DNA of 53,452 nucleotides. Origin: a virus. A model generated the notes under the pieces. That model had not been told where the DNA came from. It searched no databases and worked only from the letters and a program-made list of their open reading frames with translations. The stretch lies in the IMG/VR virus record IMGVR_UViG_3300018933_000007, positions 1 through 53,452 of that record; one strand, written 5' to 3'. Positions 15,929 through 36,401 of this stretch are shown here, piece after piece. The position numbers and the translations under genes were made by a program. Position 1 is the stretch's first letter. Every line of letters starts with the position of its first letter.

Positions 15929-16507
15929 GTGTCGCTTGCAGCCAAGATCCGGCGCTTGATTGATCTCAGGCGCGATCCTGACGGAGAGACCTACCCGATC
16001 AGTACGATCGCCAGCGAGGCCTCAAGGTTGTACCGCGAACGCCAGATTCTTGCGAGGCGCGAGCAACTCCGCGCCGCAGGCGCCAGCGCGCTGGAGATCG
16101 AGCACGAGACTGACCGGATCCGTCAGGAGAAGGACGTCCTCAACCGCTCGTATCTGAGCGAGCTGAAGGACGGGAAGCGGACGAACCCGACGTACAACGT
16201 CATCGAGGCCCTCAGTCTCTTCTTTCAGGTGAGCCCCGCCTACTTCTTCGTCGGCCCTGCTGCGACGCAGGAGACGGAGCGCGCCGAGAAGGATGTGGAA
16301 CTTGTCGCGGAGACCGTGAAGATGCTCCGCCACTTGACTTCCGCTACCAAGAGTGACGATGAAGACGTAAGCGGTGATGACGAAGTGGCTCAGCTTTTCG
16401 GGGCCTTGGCGCGGGGCGGTCAACAGGGTGATCCCAAGCAGGTCATCAACGTTCTACGGCTCGCTGTCGCCGCTCTACCCCCAACCGCCAAAGAGCCGGA
16501 TGAGTAG
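15929..16507 (+). CDS. EspR-like helix-turn-helix transcriptional regulator
   Basis: The 192-residue protein starts at GTG 15929 behind AAGGGGGG. The HTH core SYLSELKDGKRTNPTYNVIEALSLFF, read as SYLSELKDGKRTNP then ALSLFFQVSPAYFF, closely resembles the mycobacterial EspR/Xre layout, with an insertion of about 35 charged residues (about 33-70) between the first helix and the recognition part. A charged linker and a C-terminal helix probably dimerise it. It heads the plus-strand cassette, 66 bp from a 17-bp inverted repeat, so autoregulation and divergent control are likely (inferred). Confidence 0.85.
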   Translation: MSLAAKIRRLIDLRRDPDGETYPISTIASEASRLYRERQILARREQLRAAGASALEIEHETDRIRQEKDVLNRSYLSELKDGKRTNPTYNVIEALSLFFQVSPAYFFVGPAATQETERAEKDVELVAETVKMLRHLTSATKSDDEDVSGDDEVAQLFGALARGGQQGDPKQVINVLRLAVAALPPTAKEPDE

Positions 16508-16578
16508 GCTGCTTGTCACCCCCGTGCCTTACGCTGAGTGGCGTAACTGGCGAACTAAGTGATCAACCGGGGGCGTGG

Positions 16579-17124
16579 ATGGGACTGATGCGGAACCGGA
16601 GCGGACTGAAGGGGACCTGGGAGGAGGCCCTGTCAGGCCTCGCGCTTCCCGCTTCTCACTGGACCGTTGAGGACCTGCTGCGCGCCTACGTGGAGCAGGT
16701 GCGTGGTCGCAAGCTCATTCTGAGCCGAGATCAGCAAGTAGCCTCGCCGACCGGACCGAGCGGCATGTGGTTCCCCGGACCTGACGCCGACCTTGTCTGG
16801 GCACACCCCTCCGCGACGGGCGTTCAGTACGACCACGTCCTCGGACACGAACTCGGCCACATGATCAACGGCGACGAGCCCGATAAGCTCGACCTCGCCA
16901 GCGCCGTACGCCTCCTGCTGAGTGCGTCTGGAAGCGCGTCTGGCCTCATGCAGGCCGCCCTTGTCTCAGCAGGAGTGCGGTGCCGGACCGACGGCACGAG
17001 CAGCGAAGAACGCGAGCGCAAGGCCGAAAACTTCAGCTACTACGTCGAGCAGTGGGTGACACGGAACCGCCCCCGTGGAGCGACCCTCCTTGAGGCGAAC
17101 ATGCGAGCAAGTCTCGACACCTGA
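16579..17124 (+). CDS. ImmA/IrrE-like HExxH metallopeptidase-type protein
   Basis: A 181-residue protein (ATG 16579 behind GGGGGCG; GTG/ATG codons from 16513 are alternatives). The zinc-peptidase motif GHELGHMINGDEP places His90, Glu91 and His94 in one helix. An earlier segment (GRKLILSRDQQVASPTGPSG) resembles the substrate strand of this family. The C-terminal half is helical. Partners of HTH repressors in mobile elements (ImmR/ImmA type) cleave their repressor on induction; the same relation is inferred here. Streptomyces copies are often annotated as toxin components. Confidence 0.8.
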   Translation: MGLMRNRSGLKGTWEEALSGLALPASHWTVEDLLRAYVEQVRGRKLILSRDQQVASPTGPSGMWFPGPDADLVWAHPSATGVQYDHVLGHELGHMINGDEPDKLDLASAVRLLLSASGSASGLMQAALVSAGVRCRTDGTSSEERERKAENFSYYVEQWVTRNRPRGATLLEANMRASLDT

Positions 17125-17137
17125 GAGATGAGAACTG

Positions 17138-18406
17138 GTGACCGCCACACCTGACCTTCGTGCATGGATCGTCGTCGCCCTGTTGACCGCAGAGGTCATC
17201 CGGCGCTTTCCCGCCTCCCGTCGCAACCCTCGGAGCAGGACCCTCTGGTTGGTCTTCCTGACCCTCGACATCTCGATGGTCACGATGCTCCAGCCTGTGG
17301 GCAACTTCCTGTACCACCTCACAGGTGTGAACGAGGTCGCCACCCTCACCAAGCACCTCACCGGGGTCGCCGCCGTGGCCTTCCTCCTGCGCTGGGTCAC
17401 CGACGTCGTCCCCGGCCGCATGGACGGCCGCCGCGAACCCACCTACAGGCGCCTCATCAGCAGCAACCCCCGACGTATCGCCACCTGGCTCGCCGTCATC
17501 GTCACCACCGCCGTCTTCCCTCTGGCTCACCGCCGCTCCGGCAACGAAGAGGACGCGGAGTTCATCTTCATCCAGGCGGGCCACTTCTGGGGCAGCCTCC
17601 ATATGCTGCTCTTCTACGCCTACCTGATCTTCGGCCTGGTCTGCGCCGCCCTGATGTGCGCAGATGCCTCTCGCGCCGCCGCACCTGGAGCCTTCAAGTA
17701 CGGCATGCAGGCCATCGCGCTGGGCTGCTCCATCGGCGCCCTGTACGGCATCCTGCGCTCCGGCTACCTGATCGCCCGCCTCTTCGGCAAGCCGTTCCTC
17801 GGAGGCGACGTCTTCGTGGACGTCGCCTCCAACTTCTGCCTCGTGACCTGCATCATCCTCGTCGTCTGCGGCGGCGCCGCCCCGAAGTGGGAGAGCATCG
17901 GCCAAAGGGTGAAGGCCCACGGCGCCGTCAACGACCTACGCCCCCTCTGGGTACACCTGACCAGCGCAGCACCCAGCGTCATCTACACCGACGGCCCCGC
18001 CCACCGGCGCCCCGGCCGGGCGAAGATCCTCACCGGCCGCCTGTACGACTTCTGGAACTGGAGGAACCTGGAGACGCGACTGCGGACGCGCATCCAGGAG
18101 ATCCTCGACGCAGGGAACATCGCCCTCGCCCCGTACGTGCCACCCTCCCTGCGCCAGCGCGCCGAGAAGGTGGGGCACGAACTGAGACTGCCCCAGTACG
18201 TGGTCACGGCCTACCTCTTGCACGAGGCCATCCGGCGGAAGCAGGCCGAAGAGCAACCCTTCGACGGCGAACCCAACGCACTCCTGTCGGCTGGTGACGA
18301 CCTCCTCAGTACCACCAACCGACTGCTCCCCGTCGGCCGCGCGCTGAACGACACCGCAGCTCTGGGGCTCCTCAACCGCAGGCTTACGACTGGAGTTCAG
18401 GCGTGA
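17138..18406 (+). CDS. MAB_1171c-type multi-pass membrane protein
   Basis: A 422-residue protein from GTG 17138. About seven to eight hydrophobic segments fall in residues 1-255 (for example AWIVVALLTAEVI, LGCSIGALYGILRSGYLIA and CLVTCIILVVCGGA). A cytoplasmic domain follows with the family hallmark KWESIGQR…LRPLWVHLTSAAPSVIY and helices around TRIQEILDAG. The family is called a putative transporter, but its function is unknown; the layout would also suit a membrane sensor. It lies between the peptidase gene and a PAP2-like gene, and the latter overlaps it by GTGA. Confidence 0.82.
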   Translation: MTATPDLRAWIVVALLTAEVIRRFPASRRNPRSRTLWLVFLTLDISMVTMLQPVGNFLYHLTGVNEVATLTKHLTGVAAVAFLLRWVTDVVPGRMDGRREPTYRRLISSNPRRIATWLAVIVTTAVFPLAHRRSGNEEDAEFIFIQAGHFWGSLHMLLFYAYLIFGLVCAALMCADASRAAAPGAFKYGMQAIALGCSIGALYGILRSGYLIARLFGKPFLGGDVFVDVASNFCLVTCIILVVCGGAAPKWESIGQRVKAHGAVNDLRPLWVHLTSAAPSVIYTDGPAHRRPGRAKILTGRLYDFWNWRNLETRLRTRIQEILDAGNIALAPYVPPSLRQRAEKVGHELRLPQYVVTAYLLHEAIRRKQAEEQPFDGEPNALLSAGDDLLSTTNRLLPVGRALNDTAALGLLNRRLTTGVQA

Positions 18407-31347: not shown

Positions 31348-33585
31348 TCAGGCGCCCTTCTTCTCGGCGAGGAGGCCCGCCTGCACGCGGCGGCGGAACT
31401 GCGAGGCCAGCGGGGACAGCCCGGAGCCCTGGTTGTAGGCCGACGCCATGCCGGACTGGGGAACGGTCACCGGCTGACCCGGCTCCGGTACGGCCGCCTG
31501 CTGCGGCACCACCGGCTGGCCGAACGGCTCAGCGCCGTTGTACGGAGCCGGACCGGCCGGGGCGGCCGGGTTCATCTCGCCCGCGAGCGGGCCGGGCTTG
31601 CCGGGCCCGTTGATCGGGGTGTCACCCGAAGGCGACGGCGACGTCGTCGGGTTGGTGGTCTCCAGGTCGATGCCGGTGGCGGCCTCCACCTGCAGGTAGG
31701 TGCCGTCGGTCGGCAGCGCGTGCAGGGACGCGACCCGGTGAGTCAGCGCGCGGTGCTGCTCGATGCGCCGGGCCAGACGCGGCTCGACGGACGCCAGCGC
31801 GGCGTGAGCCGACAGCCACGCCCCCCGCTGGCGCGGGTGGTCAGTGAACGCCGCGTAGATACCGGCCTCCAGCTCCGGCGACCCGGGCCGGACCACGGGC
31901 GTGCCCTCCTGCCAGCGGGCCGCGTACTTGTAGCCCTTCTGGAAGTCGGGGTGCGCCATCTCCTGCTTCGAGGCCACGCGCCGGGACGCGAACGCCGGGT
32001 GCTTGAGCGACTGACCGTTGTCGCCGCCCATGGACACCGGCACGTTCTGCGGCGGCGCCGGAGGCTCGGCGGAGGTGTAGGCCTGGGTGTACTCCGGCGC
32101 GGCGTGCGCGTCGCCGAACGACGGCTGCGCCTCCGGGTTGCGGGCGTCGGCCGCCCCGCTCCCGGCCTCGCCGACGTTGCGCGGCGGCGTGGTCGCGGGG
32201 GAGTTGGCGATGTTCGGCTGGGCGAACTGGTGGGGCTGGCTCCACTGGTCGGCCTGGGTGCGCAGCGAGGCATGCGACTGGTGCGCGCCGGAGGTCTCGC
32301 CGCCCTGGTCGTAGTGCGCCTGGCCGGTCATGCCGTCGGCCTGCTCACCCTCGTCGAGCAGCCACGGGAACGCCACGGTGGTCGGCAGCGGCGTGGAGCT
32401 CGGCGCGTCGTGCACGTCGGTCGTCTGCTGGATCATCGGCAGGCCGGACGCGGCCTCCTTCTTGCGGGGCGCGTCACCGACCTGACCGGCAGGCTGCATC
32501 TGCTCGGTCTCCGGCTGCGCGGGGTCCTCCTCCGGCATCTCGCCGGGGCCGCCCTCGACGGGGATGTCGGCGTAGTCGGAGTGCCCGCCCGCCCGCTCGG
32601 GGCTGGAGTTGCCGCCGGAGCCGCCCTCACCGGCCAGGGACGAGCCGGACGAGGAGCCACCGCCGCCACCGCCGTCCAGGGACGGCTCGGGAGCCGGGCC
32701 GGTCATCTGGCCTGTCTCGGAGTGCCCGCCGGGCACCTCGGGGCTGGAGTTGCCGCCGCCGTTGACGGCCTGCTGGATCGCCGGGGCCCGGCTGGAGGTC
32801 TCGGTGCCGACGACACCGGCGTTGAGGTCATTGACCGGCGGCGCGAAGTTGTCGAAGACGTCCGGGGGCAGCGGCGTCGCCTTCTGGGTGACGCCGTCCG
32901 GCGCGGTGGTCTGCTGGATCTGGTCCAGGCCCGACGCGGCCTCGACGATGGTGGCCTGCGCGCGCAGGAACGTCGCGTAGCCGACGAAGATGTCCTCGGC
33001 CGTCTTGGCCTGCGCACCGAGGCTGGAGGTGACCTGCCGGGCCTTGCCGACGGCCTGCTCGGTGAACTCCACGTTGTCGGCCCGAACAAAGTCCGGCACG
33101 TCCTGGAACCACAGGGCGGCCTGCGCGATGAGCTGGCCGTGGTCGAACGGCGCGTCGGCGACCTCGGTGTCCAGCCAGTCCGACTCGGAGGAGCCGCGCG
33201 CAGTACGGGAGATGACCGGGGCGAACGCCTCGCGGATGGAGGTGTCGGCCAGGTCCGCTTCCCGCTCCAGCGCGGCCGTGTGCTGCGAGGCGCGGTCCAT
33301 CTCGTGGAGCTGGGCGACGAGCCTGAGCTGCTCGTCGAGGGACCGGGTGTTGGCGATCCGCGCCATGAGATCGGAGCGGCGGTCAGGGCTGGGCATGCTG
33401 TTCTCCTCCTGCGCGCCCGCGCGGCGCATCCGGCGGCGTACGGACTTGTCTTCGCGGGAGGGGTTGCGGCGTGGACCGCGTGCAGCAGGACGCATCGGCT
33501 CGCTGGTGAGCGCTCGGTCCTCGTCAGCCCATGGGTCGTTGACCCACAGCGAGTCGTACGGGCTCGGCTCGACGGCGTCGTGCAT
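31348..33585 (-). CDS. large repeat-containing probable virion protein
   Basis: A 745-residue protein from ATG 33585 behind GGAAGGAGGGG. A helical part (about 65-215) is followed by low-complexity Gly/Ser/Pro segments with two internal repeats: EAASGL-x-x-IQQTT…TPLP at about 215-240 and 377-401, and NSSPE-x-x-GGHS at about 279 and 326. TVAFPW near 404 recurs in the scaffold-like protein. A conserved-looking segment FQKGYKYAARWQEGTPV…GIYAAFTDHPRQRGAW lies in the last third. An internal ATG at 33396 has a stronger ribosome-binding site (AGGAGGAG), so two products are possible. Function unknown. Confidence 0.6.
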   Translation of the reverse strand: MHDAVEPSPYDSLWVNDPWADEDRALTSEPMRPAARGPRRNPSREDKSVRRRMRRAGAQEENSMPSPDRRSDLMARIANTRSLDEQLRLVAQLHEMDRASQHTAALEREADLADTSIREAFAPVISRTARGSSESDWLDTEVADAPFDHGQLIAQAALWFQDVPDFVRADNVEFTEQAVGKARQVTSSLGAQAKTAEDIFVGYATFLRAQATIVEAASGLDQIQQTTAPDGVTQKATPLPPDVFDNFAPPVNDLNAGVVGTETSSRAPAIQQAVNGGGNSSPEVPGGHSETGQMTGPAPEPSLDGGGGGGSSSGSSLAGEGGSGGNSSPERAGGHSDYADIPVEGGPGEMPEEDPAQPETEQMQPAGQVGDAPRKKEAASGLPMIQQTTDVHDAPSSTPLPTTVAFPWLLDEGEQADGMTGQAHYDQGGETSGAHQSHASLRTQADQWSQPHQFAQPNIANSPATTPPRNVGEAGSGAADARNPEAQPSFGDAHAAPEYTQAYTSAEPPAPPQNVPVSMGGDNGQSLKHPAFASRRVASKQEMAHPDFQKGYKYAARWQEGTPVVRPGSPELEAGIYAAFTDHPRQRGAWLSAHAALASVEPRLARRIEQHRALTHRVASLHALPTDGTYLQVEAATGIDLETTNPTTSPSPSGDTPINGPGKPGPLAGEMNPAAPAGPAPYNGAEPFGQPVVPQQAAVPEPGQPVTVPQSGMASAYNQGSGLSPLASQFRRRVQAGLLAEKKGA

Positions 33586-33589
33586 ACAA

Positions 33590-33638
33590 ATCACCCCTCC
33601 TTCCGCCCCCAAGGGGCGGCGAAGGAGGGGTGAGACAG
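33590..33638 (-). promoter_or_regulatory. late-gene start element with 12-bp SD-sequestering hairpin
   Basis: The minus strand reads CTGTC, 21 bases, TTGGGGGCG. CACCCCTCCTTC pairs perfectly with GAAGGAGGGGTG, which contains the Shine-Dalgarno of the 745-residue protein. It is the rightmost clear copy of the left-arm element. Confidence 0.75.
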
Positions 33639-33648
33639 GAGGAGGGGG

Positions 33649-33894
33649 TCAGTCGGTGGCGGGCACCTTCTCAGGGGTGTACTCCAGGATGTCGCCGACG
33701 CCGCAGCGGAGCACGCGACAGATGGCGGAGAGGGTGGCGAAGCGGACGGCGGCGACCTTGGCGTTGCGCAGCTTGGAGATGTTCGCCTCGGTGATGCCTG
33801 CCTGCCGGGCCAGCTCGGCCGGGCTCATGCCGCGCTCGCGGAGGATGTCGTCGAGGTGGATGGTGATCTCGTGCTCGAAGTCGGTGGGCGGCAT
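33649..33894 (-). CDS. YozG-like Xre (HTH_26) regulator
   Basis: The 81-residue protein is almost entirely a Cro/CI-type HTH: ITIHLDDILRERGMSPAELA, ANISKLRNAKVAAVRF, TLSAICRVLRCGVGDILEY. This closely follows the YozG family, which usually accompanies DUF2975 membrane proteins. One base separates its ATG from the stop of the upstream membrane-protein gene. It is the obvious candidate to bind the two operators at 34490-34538 (inferred). Confidence 0.9.
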   Translation of the reverse strand: MPPTDFEHEITIHLDDILRERGMSPAELARQAGITEANISKLRNAKVAAVRFATLSAICRVLRCGVGDILEYTPEKVPATD

Positions 33895-33895
33895 G

Positions 33896-34477
33896 TCAGA
33901 CCACCTTGTCCAGTTCGGCGTCGAGCTTCCGGGCCCGGTCGTGCTCCTTCATCCAGTCGGTGCGGTTGCCGACGGCGCCGATCAGCACCATGGCGAAGGA
34001 GCCGGAGATAAGGAGGGCGTTGAGGCCGAAGGCCGAGGCGGGCAGTGCGACGTCGAAGTGCAGCTTGATGGCGGCGTTGACGACCATGATGGGCGCCAAC
34101 ATGATGACCATCGCTGCGAAGGAGAAGCCGATCAGGACACGCTGCGCCTTCTTCTTGTCGTAGTCGTGCGACCGGCGTGCCCACATCAGGTAGCCGTACG
34201 CGGCGACGACCATCATCAGCGTCAGCACGCTCGGGAGAGAGGCGATGACGCGGTCCGCGAAGCTGGGGTCTGCCAGCTTGACGGTGACGGCCTGGACCGT
34301 GCCCTGCAGCTCCTCGGGGGCGCCCTTGGCGGAGGGGGCCTTCGCGGTGACGGTGGGGTTCATGGCCATCTGGATCAGGTCCCAGGTTGCCATGCCCATC
34401 ATGAGCAGGGGCAGCCACGTCTTGGTGGAGCTGTCGATGATCTTGTCGGCGCGGGCGTCGGCGACGGAAGACTTCAT
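33896..34477 (-). CDS. four-helix membrane protein, DUF2975-like
   Basis: A 193-residue protein with hydrophobic segments at about 20-40, 78-98, 113-135 and 148-168, and charged ends. Size, topology and the YozG-type partner directly downstream suggest the DUF2975 family, whose function is unknown. ATG 34477 follows AAGGA. The promoter is overlapped and followed by identical palindromes, so the pair is probably autoregulated. Confidence 0.65.
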   Translation of the reverse strand: MKSSVADARADKIIDSSTKTWLPLLMMGMATWDLIQMAMNPTVTAKAPSAKGAPEELQGTVQAVTVKLADPSFADRVIASLPSVLTLMMVVAAYGYLMWARRSHDYDKKKAQRVLIGFSFAAMVIMLAPIMVVNAAIKLHFDVALPASAFGLNALLISGSFAMVLIGAVGNRTDWMKEHDRARKLDAELDKVV

Positions 34478-34489
34478 GGCGGGATGTCC

Positions 34490-34505
34490 TTATCGTGGAC
34501 GATAA
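34490..34505. promoter_or_regulatory. operator palindrome O1
   Basis: TTATCGTGGACGATAA has perfect 7-bp arms. It lies between the -10 box and the start codon of the 33896-34477 gene, and its centre is 33 bp from that of the second copy. Confidence 0.8.
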
Positions 34506-34515
34506 CTTGAGCTCG

Positions 34516-34545
34516 ATAGTAGTTATCGTCCACGATAAGAGTCAA
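34516..34545 (-). promoter_or_regulatory. promoter of the DUF2975/YozG-type pair
   Basis: The minus strand has TTGACT (plus 34540-34545) and TACTAT (plus 34516-34521), 18 bases apart, the best sigma-70-like promoter in the window. Operator O2 fills the spacer. Confidence 0.8.
34523..34538. promoter_or_regulatory. operator palindrome O2 inside the promoter spacer
   Basis: TTATCGTCCACGATAA is the exact reverse complement of O1. It lies between -35 and -10, so a bound repressor would exclude RNA polymerase. Confidence 0.8.
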
Positions 34546-34551
34546 GCCGGT

Positions 34552-36306
34552 TCAGCGGCCCTTGAAGTTCGGCAGGTGCGGGCCGACGTAGCCGACGATC
34601 ACCTGGCCCGTCGGACCGGCGGTGTCGTCGTAGAAGTGCATGCGCGGCGCCGGAGGCCTGCCCCCGCCGATCCGCACGTGGGCCCCCATGAACACCTCGC
34701 CCAGCTCCGGCACGGTGAACAGCCGGGTACGCCGCACCCGCAGGTCGGAACCGCCGCGCTCCAGCAGCACCTCGGACGCGACGTACATGCCCTTGGAGAT
34801 GAGCGTGGTGGCCTGCGGCCAGTCCAGGTAGGCGGTGAAGTGAGGGAGCACCCCCGCCCCGTGCTCCGCCTTGGCTTCGCCGTAGGCGTTCAGCGCCTCC
34901 AGCGCCTCCTCCGTCCGCCGCAGCCACGTCTTCTCCGAGGAGTGCCCGCGCAGCGACTTCACCGGCTCCCGCGCACAGTCCAGGATCCGCACGTACGGCA
35001 TCAGCTCGGTGGCCAGCTCGAACAGCTCCTGCCAGCTCTCCGGCCCCTTCGGGCGTTCCGGCACCGGCTCCGCATACGAGCGCCCCGGGACGAGGGCCAG
35101 CTGGCGGCGCAGGTAGGCCACCTCGCGGGTGAGCTCCTCCGCCTCGGCCTGGGCCGTCGCCTCGGCCGCCCAGGCGCTCTCGGCCTCCGCGCGGAATTCC
35201 TTCGCCTGCTCGGTCAGCGGGTTCCGTTCCAGCTCCAGCAGGCGCTTCTCAGCAGCCTCCTTCGACGCGTACACCAGCTGGGCCTTCTCTCGCTCGCGCC
35301 GCAGCAGGTCCCTGGTTTCGGCAAGGAGCGTCTCCAGCTCGCGGGCCCGCTCCTCGGCCTCCCGCTTCTCCCGCATCGCTCGCGCGGACGCCACCGGAAG
35401 CTCCGGCAGCACCCAGGAGTTGCGCAGGTTCTCCACCCCGGCGCGGGCCCGGCTGCAGAAGTGCGGCCGGAGCGCGGCGTAGCGGACGACGGCGTCGGCC
35501 GTCTCCTTCAGCAGCTGGCCGAAGGTCCCACCCGGGGGCCGCCGGACGATGCAGTCGGCCATCGGCCACTCGTCGTGGCGCGGCTTGGTCGGCAGGATCA
35601 GCCCTCCGCCCCACTTCAGCCGCAGCCGCGACTCCGGCAGCACACCGTCGGCGTTGACGATCTGGTCCTGGTCACCGTAGACGCGGAACTCCACTACGCG
35701 CCCCCGCAGCGACGGCGGGACCAGCTCGGCCAGCGGCAGCCCCGGGCTCTGGACGGCCTCCTCCACCGGCCGCCTGTCGTGCGTGACGACCGGGATGTAC
35801 CAGGGGCATGCCGACAGCTCCTCGAACTGCTGGGCCAGATGCTCGGTGTGCAGGTCAAGTGCCCCGGTCTCCTCCATGAGGAGCAGACGGCCGCCGACCC
35901 AGTCGTACGTCGTCAGGTTGCCGAACATGACGTCCACCGGCGACTTCCAGGCCATCTGCCACGGCCGGTCGGCCTCGGCCGTCAGCGTCCAGGACAGGTC
36001 CAGGTCGGCCGGGATCACGTCCGGCGAGTGGCGCTGCAGGCCCTCCCTCTCGGCGATGACGAGGTCCGGCGCCAGCAGCAGGCGCGCGTTGATGCGGTCG
36101 CCGTCCTTGGTCTGCCAGGCCGCGTCGACTCCCCACCACCAGTGGCCGCCCTCGGGGAGGAACCTCCTGGCGTCCGCTATCTCCCCGTGTTCGATGCTGT
36201 CGTCGATGTGGTCGCGGATCGCGTCCAGTGCGGTGGTGTGCCGGACGCGGCCGCTGGCATGCCAGACGGTGTCCGGCCAGGGCAGAAGCTGCTTGCGCTT
36301 CGCCAT
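34552..36306 (-). CDS. large coiled-coil protein of unknown function
   Basis: A 584-residue protein from ATG 36306 behind AGAGGAGACC. Residues 1-290 are a globular part with many Trp. Residues about 300-420 are a long coiled coil (REKREAEERARELETLLAET, KEAAEKRLLELERNPL). A C-terminal domain contains LISKGMYVASEVLLERGG and ends RMHFYDDTAGPTGQVIVGYV…HLPNF, a pattern I associate with uncharacterised Streptomyces proteins. It is not recognisably structural and no catalytic motif is seen. Confidence 0.65.
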   Translation of the reverse strand: MAKRKQLLPWPDTVWHASGRVRHTTALDAIRDHIDDSIEHGEIADARRFLPEGGHWWWGVDAAWQTKDGDRINARLLLAPDLVIAEREGLQRHSPDVIPADLDLSWTLTAEADRPWQMAWKSPVDVMFGNLTTYDWVGGRLLLMEETGALDLHTEHLAQQFEELSACPWYIPVVTHDRRPVEEAVQSPGLPLAELVPPSLRGRVVEFRVYGDQDQIVNADGVLPESRLRLKWGGGLILPTKPRHDEWPMADCIVRRPPGGTFGQLLKETADAVVRYAALRPHFCSRARAGVENLRNSWVLPELPVASARAMREKREAEERARELETLLAETRDLLRREREKAQLVYASKEAAEKRLLELERNPLTEQAKEFRAEAESAWAAEATAQAEAEELTREVAYLRRQLALVPGRSYAEPVPERPKGPESWQELFELATELMPYVRILDCAREPVKSLRGHSSEKTWLRRTEEALEALNAYGEAKAEHGAGVLPHFTAYLDWPQATTLISKGMYVASEVLLERGGSDLRVRRTRLFTVPELGEVFMGAHVRIGGGRPPAPRMHFYDDTAGPTGQVIVGYVGPHLPNFKGR

Positions 36307-36401
36307 GGTGGTCTCCTCTGTTGTGGCGGTGTCATGCATTGTGTCGAGAAACACTGACAGCCACCGCCAGAGCACAGAATCCGCGCGACGAAACGTAAAG
36401 A

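Follow-up and report, generated by a model that had tools for sequence, protein, structure and literature searches.

A pair of minus-strand genes in a virus record of 53,452 nucleotides (the window, meaning the whole stretch of DNA that was analysed) is probably a two-gene regulatory moron of the DUF2975/YozG type, in which an HTH protein would repress its own operon, a membrane partner would control the HTH protein, and the switch would be insulated from the host. Autoregulation of the pair is well supported at the sequence level, because the operators and the promoter are kept between phages whose membrane proteins are 45% identical and because the operator tracks the pair family-wide. The mechanism that we infer further includes DNA binding, cooperativity and a role for the membrane protein. 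The 81-aa HTH protein, presumably dimeric, would bind one operator in the core promoter (O1) and another in the leader (O2) and so repress its own operon; the dimer at O1 would block RNA polymerase, and O2 would add cooperativity or a roadblock. The membrane protein would be made from the same mRNA, its last helix is predicted to enter the cytosol and to end at a conserved tail, and through this tail it may bind or release the HTH protein on a membrane or envelope signal and thereby set the switch. The weak points of this mechanism are a covariation that is confounded by phylogeny and a membrane protein that lacks a Pfam DUF2975 match and has a weak profile similarity. The phage-borne pair with a re-spaced operator is new, and the underlying gene pair is known yet unexplained. 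The features are as follows.

33649 to 34551, minus strand: whole inserted cassette (moron), absent from seven related phages
33649 to 33894, minus strand: HTH_26/YozG-type DNA-binding protein, 81 aa (open reading frame list and Pfam profile match)
33896 to 34477, minus strand: putative DUF2975-like membrane protein, 193 aa, four helices, tail LDAELDKVV (topology, gene order, tail and weak profile similarity)
34490 to 34505, minus strand: predicted operator O2, TTATCGTCCACGATAA, 34 bp from O1 in the sister phages and 33 bp in L109
34516 to 34521, minus strand: −10 hexamer TACTAT (read directly, and consensus promoter scan)
34523 to 34538, minus strand: predicted operator O1, TTATCGTGGACGATAA, that is, TTATCG-N4-CGATAA, 100% conserved in the sister phages and in the same place in L109
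34540 to 34545, minus strand: −35 hexamer TTGACT (read directly), identical in the sister phages L003/L117, TTGACA in L109
33591 to 33633, minus strand: conserved hairpin (−38 kcal/mol, z −4.4) just downstream of the cassette, also present in the empty-site phages

The cassette and its phage

The window carries genes for a tail sheath, a major head protein, a portal, an endolysin and a tail fibre, and its portal shares 35 to 38% identity with the portals of large Rhodococcus, Gordonia and Mycobacterium phages. With these structural genes, and with sister phages that carry the same cassette, the use of the pair by a phage that the preliminary description had assumed is confirmed. The window is probably a fragment. 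The 754-aa protein encoded next to the cassette (31351 to 33585) has no match in the phage collection and shares 72% identity with one encoded by pRLB1-9.1, a circular replicon of 154,158 bp from Streptomyces sp. RLB1-9 (PMC6753273). This replicon (L141) shares the gene order of the window, namely dcd, the genes of the 604-aa and 754-aa proteins and a tail-fibre-like gene, and is therefore a phage-plasmid. A tyrosine integrase scores above the Pfam cut-off in three relatives of 154 to 157 kb, and several relatives have a ParA-like match; together with pRLB1-9.1, these genes indicate that the phage group is probably temperate, with at least one member living as a plasmid.

The cassette is about 0.9 kb long; it begins just past the stop of the 604-aa gene (34552) and reaches to the conserved leader in front of the 754-aa gene. 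Relatives of this downstream neighbour are encoded at thirteen loci, and in seven related phages (L115, L116, L121, L123, L124, L125 and L126) the 604-aa gene upstream and the 754-aa gene downstream are directly adjacent, with neither the pair nor the operator between them. Among the related phages compared, the cassette is restricted to the window and one sister group (contigs 3300046xxx), and no further copy of the pair or of the HTH gene was found in the related phage records searched whole. The cassette is a moron, since it has its own promoter and stands between genes that are adjacent in relatives. It resembles other phage morons in being a foreign-looking unit with its own promoter between phage genes and with empty sites in relatives, and differs from them in carrying its own dedicated repressor and a doubled operator, and in that no terminator belonging to it was found. 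The hairpin at 33591 to 33633 was considered as the cassette terminator and rejected; it is present in filled and empty phages alike and so is not part of the cassette, but belongs to the next gene. Its 3′ arm holds the Shine-Dalgarno sequence (AAGGAGG) of the 754-aa gene, whose translation it may control. Elsewhere in the window, the C-terminal part of the 604-aa protein (34552 to 36366) matches PADLOC NsnC (3.5e-10). A plus-strand cluster at 15929 to 18403, which runs opposite to most phage genes, encodes a regulator-like protein, a metalloprotease-like protein (possibly of the ImmA type) and a putative transporter of the MAB_1171c family (2.7e-34).

The main rival reading is an addiction module of the toxin-antitoxin kind, with the membrane protein as toxin and the HTH protein as antitoxin and autorepressor, which would retain the phage-plasmid in its host. 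We regard it as unlikely. The pair does resemble type II systems with an Xre antitoxin in forming an autoregulated two-gene operon on a mobile element, and a relative of the phage exists as a circular 154-kb plasmid, pRLB1-9.1 (PMC6753273). Xre/YoaS-like pairs also turned up in the toxin-antitoxin screen of Makarova et al. in 2009 and were excluded only for lack of precedent, since at that time no type II system was known to include a membrane component (PMC2701414). However, pRLB1-9.1, the very plasmid form that would need addiction, lacks the cassette, as do six other relatives; such pairs are common on chromosomes across phyla; and neither the membrane protein nor the pair had a useful match in the PADLOC defence library. 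The partner in the phage is, moreover, a multi-pass membrane protein, and pairs of this kind are excluded from the toxin-antitoxin catalogue (PMC2701414).

Promoter, operators and the family site

On the minus strand, direct reading of the sequence gives the order TTGACT-C-TTATCGTGGACGATAA-C-TACTAT-CGAGCTCAAG-TTATCGTCCACGATAA-GGACATCCCGCC-ATG, in which CGAGCTCAAG is 10 nt long. The promoter TTGACT-18-TACTAT with a 16-bp palindrome in its spacer, as described earlier, was thus found at 34545 to 34516, with O1 taking up 16 of the 18 bp between the hexamers, and the exact reverse complement said to follow 33 bp on was recovered as a second 16-mer. O1 and O2 are exact reverse complements of each other, each made of two 7-bp arms around a non-palindromic 2-bp centre (14 of the 16 positions being palindromic). 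The end of O2 overlaps an SD-like AAGGA (34487 to 34491), and O2 would lie in the 5′ untranslated region. When up to three mismatches to TTATCGT-N2-ACGATAA were allowed, O1 and O2 were the sole matches in 53 kb, both of them exact (mean of 0.16 matches per shuffled window), and TTGACT-18-TACTAT is one of two consensus promoter matches in a 1.2-kb region for which shuffles give 0.1. Within the window, and likewise within two further carrier records, the operators are confined to the cassette, a restriction that fits autoregulation.

The two operators and the −35 hexamer are 100% identical in the window and in the sister phage, and the distance between the operators is 33 bp in the former and 34 bp in the latter. 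The membrane proteins are 45% identical (dS 0.52, pN/pS 0.87), the HTH proteins 91% (dS 0.17) and the products of the flanking genes 66 to 79% (dS 0.35 to 0.41). A third viral contig, L109 (188,697 bp), encodes an HTH protein with 58% identity and has the layout TTGACA-C-TTATCGTGGACGGTAA-G-TATTCT, followed 33 bp on by TTATCGCAGACGGTAA. A second operator is thus present in all three, at distances of 33 bp (window), 34 bp (sisters) and 33 bp (L109), and the family mostly uses 21 or 16 bp. The L109 gene directly upstream of the pair (1035 to 1775) looks TerD-like by eye.

The contrast between the two proteins could be taken to mean that the membrane protein excludes superinfecting phages or otherwise modifies the host envelope, with the HTH protein merely setting its level. 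The rapid divergence of the membrane protein next to a conserved HTH protein, the position of the cassette between two phage genes under its own promoter and the integrase of the (temperate) relatives would agree with such a role, which we nevertheless consider decidedly unlikely. The membrane protein probably belongs with the bacterial DUF2975 partners, which are not phage proteins, it has no match in the defence library, and the low dS of the HTH gene (0.17, against 0.35 to 0.52 around it) suggests that recombination may explain part of the contrast.

Outside phages, a genome scan with the HTH protein returned 80 loci from Actinobacteria, Firmicutes, Bacteroidetes, Proteobacteria, candidate phyla and others, in agreement with the earlier statement that the pair is common on chromosomes. 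A gene with two to five transmembrane segments lies directly upstream of the HTH gene in 74 of these 80 genomic relatives, and the upstream gene of the plasmid-borne HTH relatives (44 to 54% identity) is annotated as DUF2975 in all eleven annotated loci read. For 89 relatives from many phyla, in which the HTH gene stands behind a multi-pass gene of the DUF2975 type, we searched the stretch of at most 260 nt that precedes the first transmembrane segment. These loci were picked by HTH similarity and the counts are uncorrected for relatedness, yet many phyla are represented and expectation is exceeded by wide margins. An unbiased search for inverted repeats found TATCG-N5-CGATA in 24 of the 89 regions (shuffle mean 0.0) and TATTG-N5-CAATA in 12 (shuffle mean 0.07). 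With at most one mismatch, TTATYG-N5-CRATAA is present in 60 of the 89 loci (0.65 expected), and with two mismatches in 76 (6.6 expected). The palindrome which the preliminary description proposed to seek near other pairs thus has a widespread counterpart in this repeat, and the lack of any such palindrome at kindred pairs, named there as part of a refutation, did not come about, although its literal form, with 7-bp arms and N2, occurs only in three viral lineages. We suggest that the TTATYG inverted repeat, whose arms stand 5 bp apart, serves as the operator of the family and so is its predicted DNA target.

Of 76 loci, 32 have another copy of the site at a distance of 21 bp, against 0.37 expected, and 12 have one at 16 bp, against 0.07. 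Twin operators on the same face of the helix had also been proposed, and the phased double sites at 21 bp bear this out for part of the family. As a general rule it does not stand: the 16-bp spacing, common in actinobacterial pairs, corresponds to about 1.5 turns and is not integral, so that cooperativity is not implied everywhere. The base at position 4 of the half-site covaries with HTH positions 35, 41, 47 and 48, which fall around the recognition helix, with phylogeny as a confounder. One clade (L031, L036, L040, L052, L063, L071, L079 and L103), whose membrane partners have tails of the form ...ETL, uses TTAAYG half-sites instead of TTATYG.

An exact double-palindrome scan of the viral contigs also returned four marine-looking T4-like contigs (L009, L011, L012 and L013). 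They were rejected as relatives, since they have no YozG pair and their doubled TTATCGTTTACGATAA/TTATCGTAAACGATAA is close to a phosphoesterase-like gene; the TTATCGTTTACGATAA-type palindromes in these contigs are 50 bp apart. That unrelated phages without such a pair have a doubled TTATCGTTTACGATAA would favour a reading in which the palindromes are targets of another regulator, or mere RNA or terminator elements. This is highly improbable, as the motif accompanies the pair at 60 of the 89 loci, is absent from the empty-site relatives and has a half-site base 4 that covaries with the HTH protein.

The two proteins

The HTH gene starts 1 nt past the stop of the membrane gene, which lies directly upstream in the same orientation. 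Its YozG-type identity, given in the preliminary description, is upheld by an HTH_26 profile match at 9e-23 (80.7 bits against a cut-off of 22, residues 13 to 75) and by 49% identity to a Bacillus mojavensis protein from a DUF2975 pair. Identity to YozG-type proteins from plasmids is 44 to 54%, and the closest chromosomal HTH protein in the 296 Streptomyces genomes scanned is at most 54% identical to the phage protein. The recognition-helix region is highly conserved.

The description of the membrane protein as a DUF2975-like partner holds by gene order, by topology, by the tail and, weakly, by profile similarity to actinobacterial DUF2975 proteins, but not by Pfam. The DUF2975 profile (PF11188) gave no match to the window protein at E ≤ 0.1, short of its gathering score, and none to the L003 and L109 proteins at E ≤ 1, whereas it matches all eight bacterial partners tested (two below cut-off). 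With an HMM built from the three phage membrane proteins, five actinobacterial DUF2975 proteins outrank all 528 decoys (best E 3e-5); the reverse profile search was not clean, one block-shuffled decoy outscoring the phage proteins. Alignment of the phage proteins with the actinobacterial DUF2975 subset by hhalign gave P 5e-5 but a probability of 67%, and with all partners a probability of 11%. A LADPS..DR-like segment and the topology are common to the phage membrane protein and the DUF2975 proteins. Searches of viral contigs, genome contigs, phages and plasmids with a single membrane-protein query returned nothing usable, because the protein is too diverged. In view of the weak profile similarity, we call the phage protein putatively DUF2975-like and not a member of the Pfam family.

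Four transmembrane segments are found in the L003 and L109 proteins, and also in the window protein, whose first segment is weak by hydropathy yet a helix in the model. Positive residues favour a topology with both termini inside (732 versus 260). The tails of the DUF2975 partners end in V, I or L in 88 of 88 cases and have E, D or Q at −6 in all; the tails of the phage proteins fit this pattern, and that of the window combines an acidic −6 residue with a final V. AlphaFold pLDDT is 86.5 for the B. mojavensis DUF2975 protein and 70.3 for the phage protein, and in both models the last transmembrane helix continues almost to the final residue. A fold search of the DUF2975 model against the PDB gave no significant match. 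The DUF2975 partners (L026 to L105) end exactly at the conserved tail even where the genes do not overlap, and this exact end suggests a C-terminal recognition motif.

The spacer variant and known systems

The window, the sister group and L109 have the family half-site with a spacer of 4 bp in place of the 5 bp of TTATYG-N5-CRATAA, the operator as defined in this analysis (for example TTATCGTTTATCGATAA). The exact N5 core is present in 59 of 85 bacterial loci, with spacers of 0 to 4 or 6 bp, and hence the 4-bp core, in none of them, and in 25 of 29 usable Streptomyces pairs, with spacers of 3, 4 or 6 bp in none; a double 4-bp operator was likewise found in none of 393 Streptomyces genomes. The three phage HTH proteins share E36, R43, V47, G65 and V/I66, which are rare among the other 95, where K43 is found in 93 and Q65 and P66 in 88 each. 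We hypothesize that these residue changes cause the shift in spacer; those from K43 to R and from Q65-P66 to G-V/I are possibly at the dimer interface. The re-spaced sites would insulate the phage switch from the YozG proteins of the host. We tentatively propose, as a real possibility and not as the settled reading, that the phage lineage re-engineered an ancient pan-bacterial pair of membrane sensor and repressor into an orthogonal switch by a 1-bp change of spacing with matching HTH changes, so that the prophage or phage-plasmid could operate its copy alongside that of the host and free of cross-talk. The opposite view is one of cross-talk, by which the phage would read or hijack the pair of its host, its HTH protein acting on host YozG operators or the YozG protein of the host acting at the phage promoter; it could appeal to the TTATCG half-site in common and to the conserved recognition-helix region. 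It is quite improbable, since the spacer classes (4 versus 5) do not overlap in the 85 bacterial loci or the 29 Streptomyces pairs and the residues altered in the phage group are otherwise family-invariant.

CylR2 is an HTH_3-type protein, and CylR1 has three predicted transmembrane helices. In the cytolysin system of Enterococcus faecalis to which they belong, a small HTH repressor and a small membrane protein are, as in the phage, encoded together; they act on overlapping promoters, and CylR1 is needed for induction (PMC3709268). By analogy with the mode of action proposed for this system, the phage membrane protein would control its HTH protein; the target of CylR1/CylR2 is a divergent toxin operon, whereas the phage operators are found solely at the pair's own promoter. 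Compared with the YoaS-YozG pairs of Bacillus, Streptomyces and others, the phage pair has the same HTH family, the membrane gene first, mostly four transmembrane helices, a C-terminal acidic tail ending in V, I or L and TTATYG half-sites in doubled operators. It differs in a membrane protein that Pfam DUF2975 does not recognise, a spacer of 4 and not 5 bp, sites 33/34 bp apart and not 21 or 16, and an HTH protein without the near-invariant K43 and Q65-P66.

DUF2975 is scarcely mentioned in the literature searched, and the Xre/YoaS-like pairs were set aside in 2009 unexplained (PMC2701414). In the cpp cluster of Streptomyces cacaoi, a non-ribosomal peptide gene cluster, an HTH gene (cppD) comes after a DUF2975 gene (cppC) (PMC7827011); this is a possible place to seek the signal of a DUF2975/YozG pair. 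From our comparison the family gains a predicted target on DNA, an arrangement with two sites and, in the conserved C-terminal tail, a likely point of contact, and its function thereby becomes testable with simple reporters in Bacillus or Streptomyces. The phage version is a natural spacer variant with matching protein changes and would be useful for mapping how small repressors measure the distance between half-sites; it also makes the pair part of the accessory gene pool of those Streptomyces phages that are able to live as plasmids.
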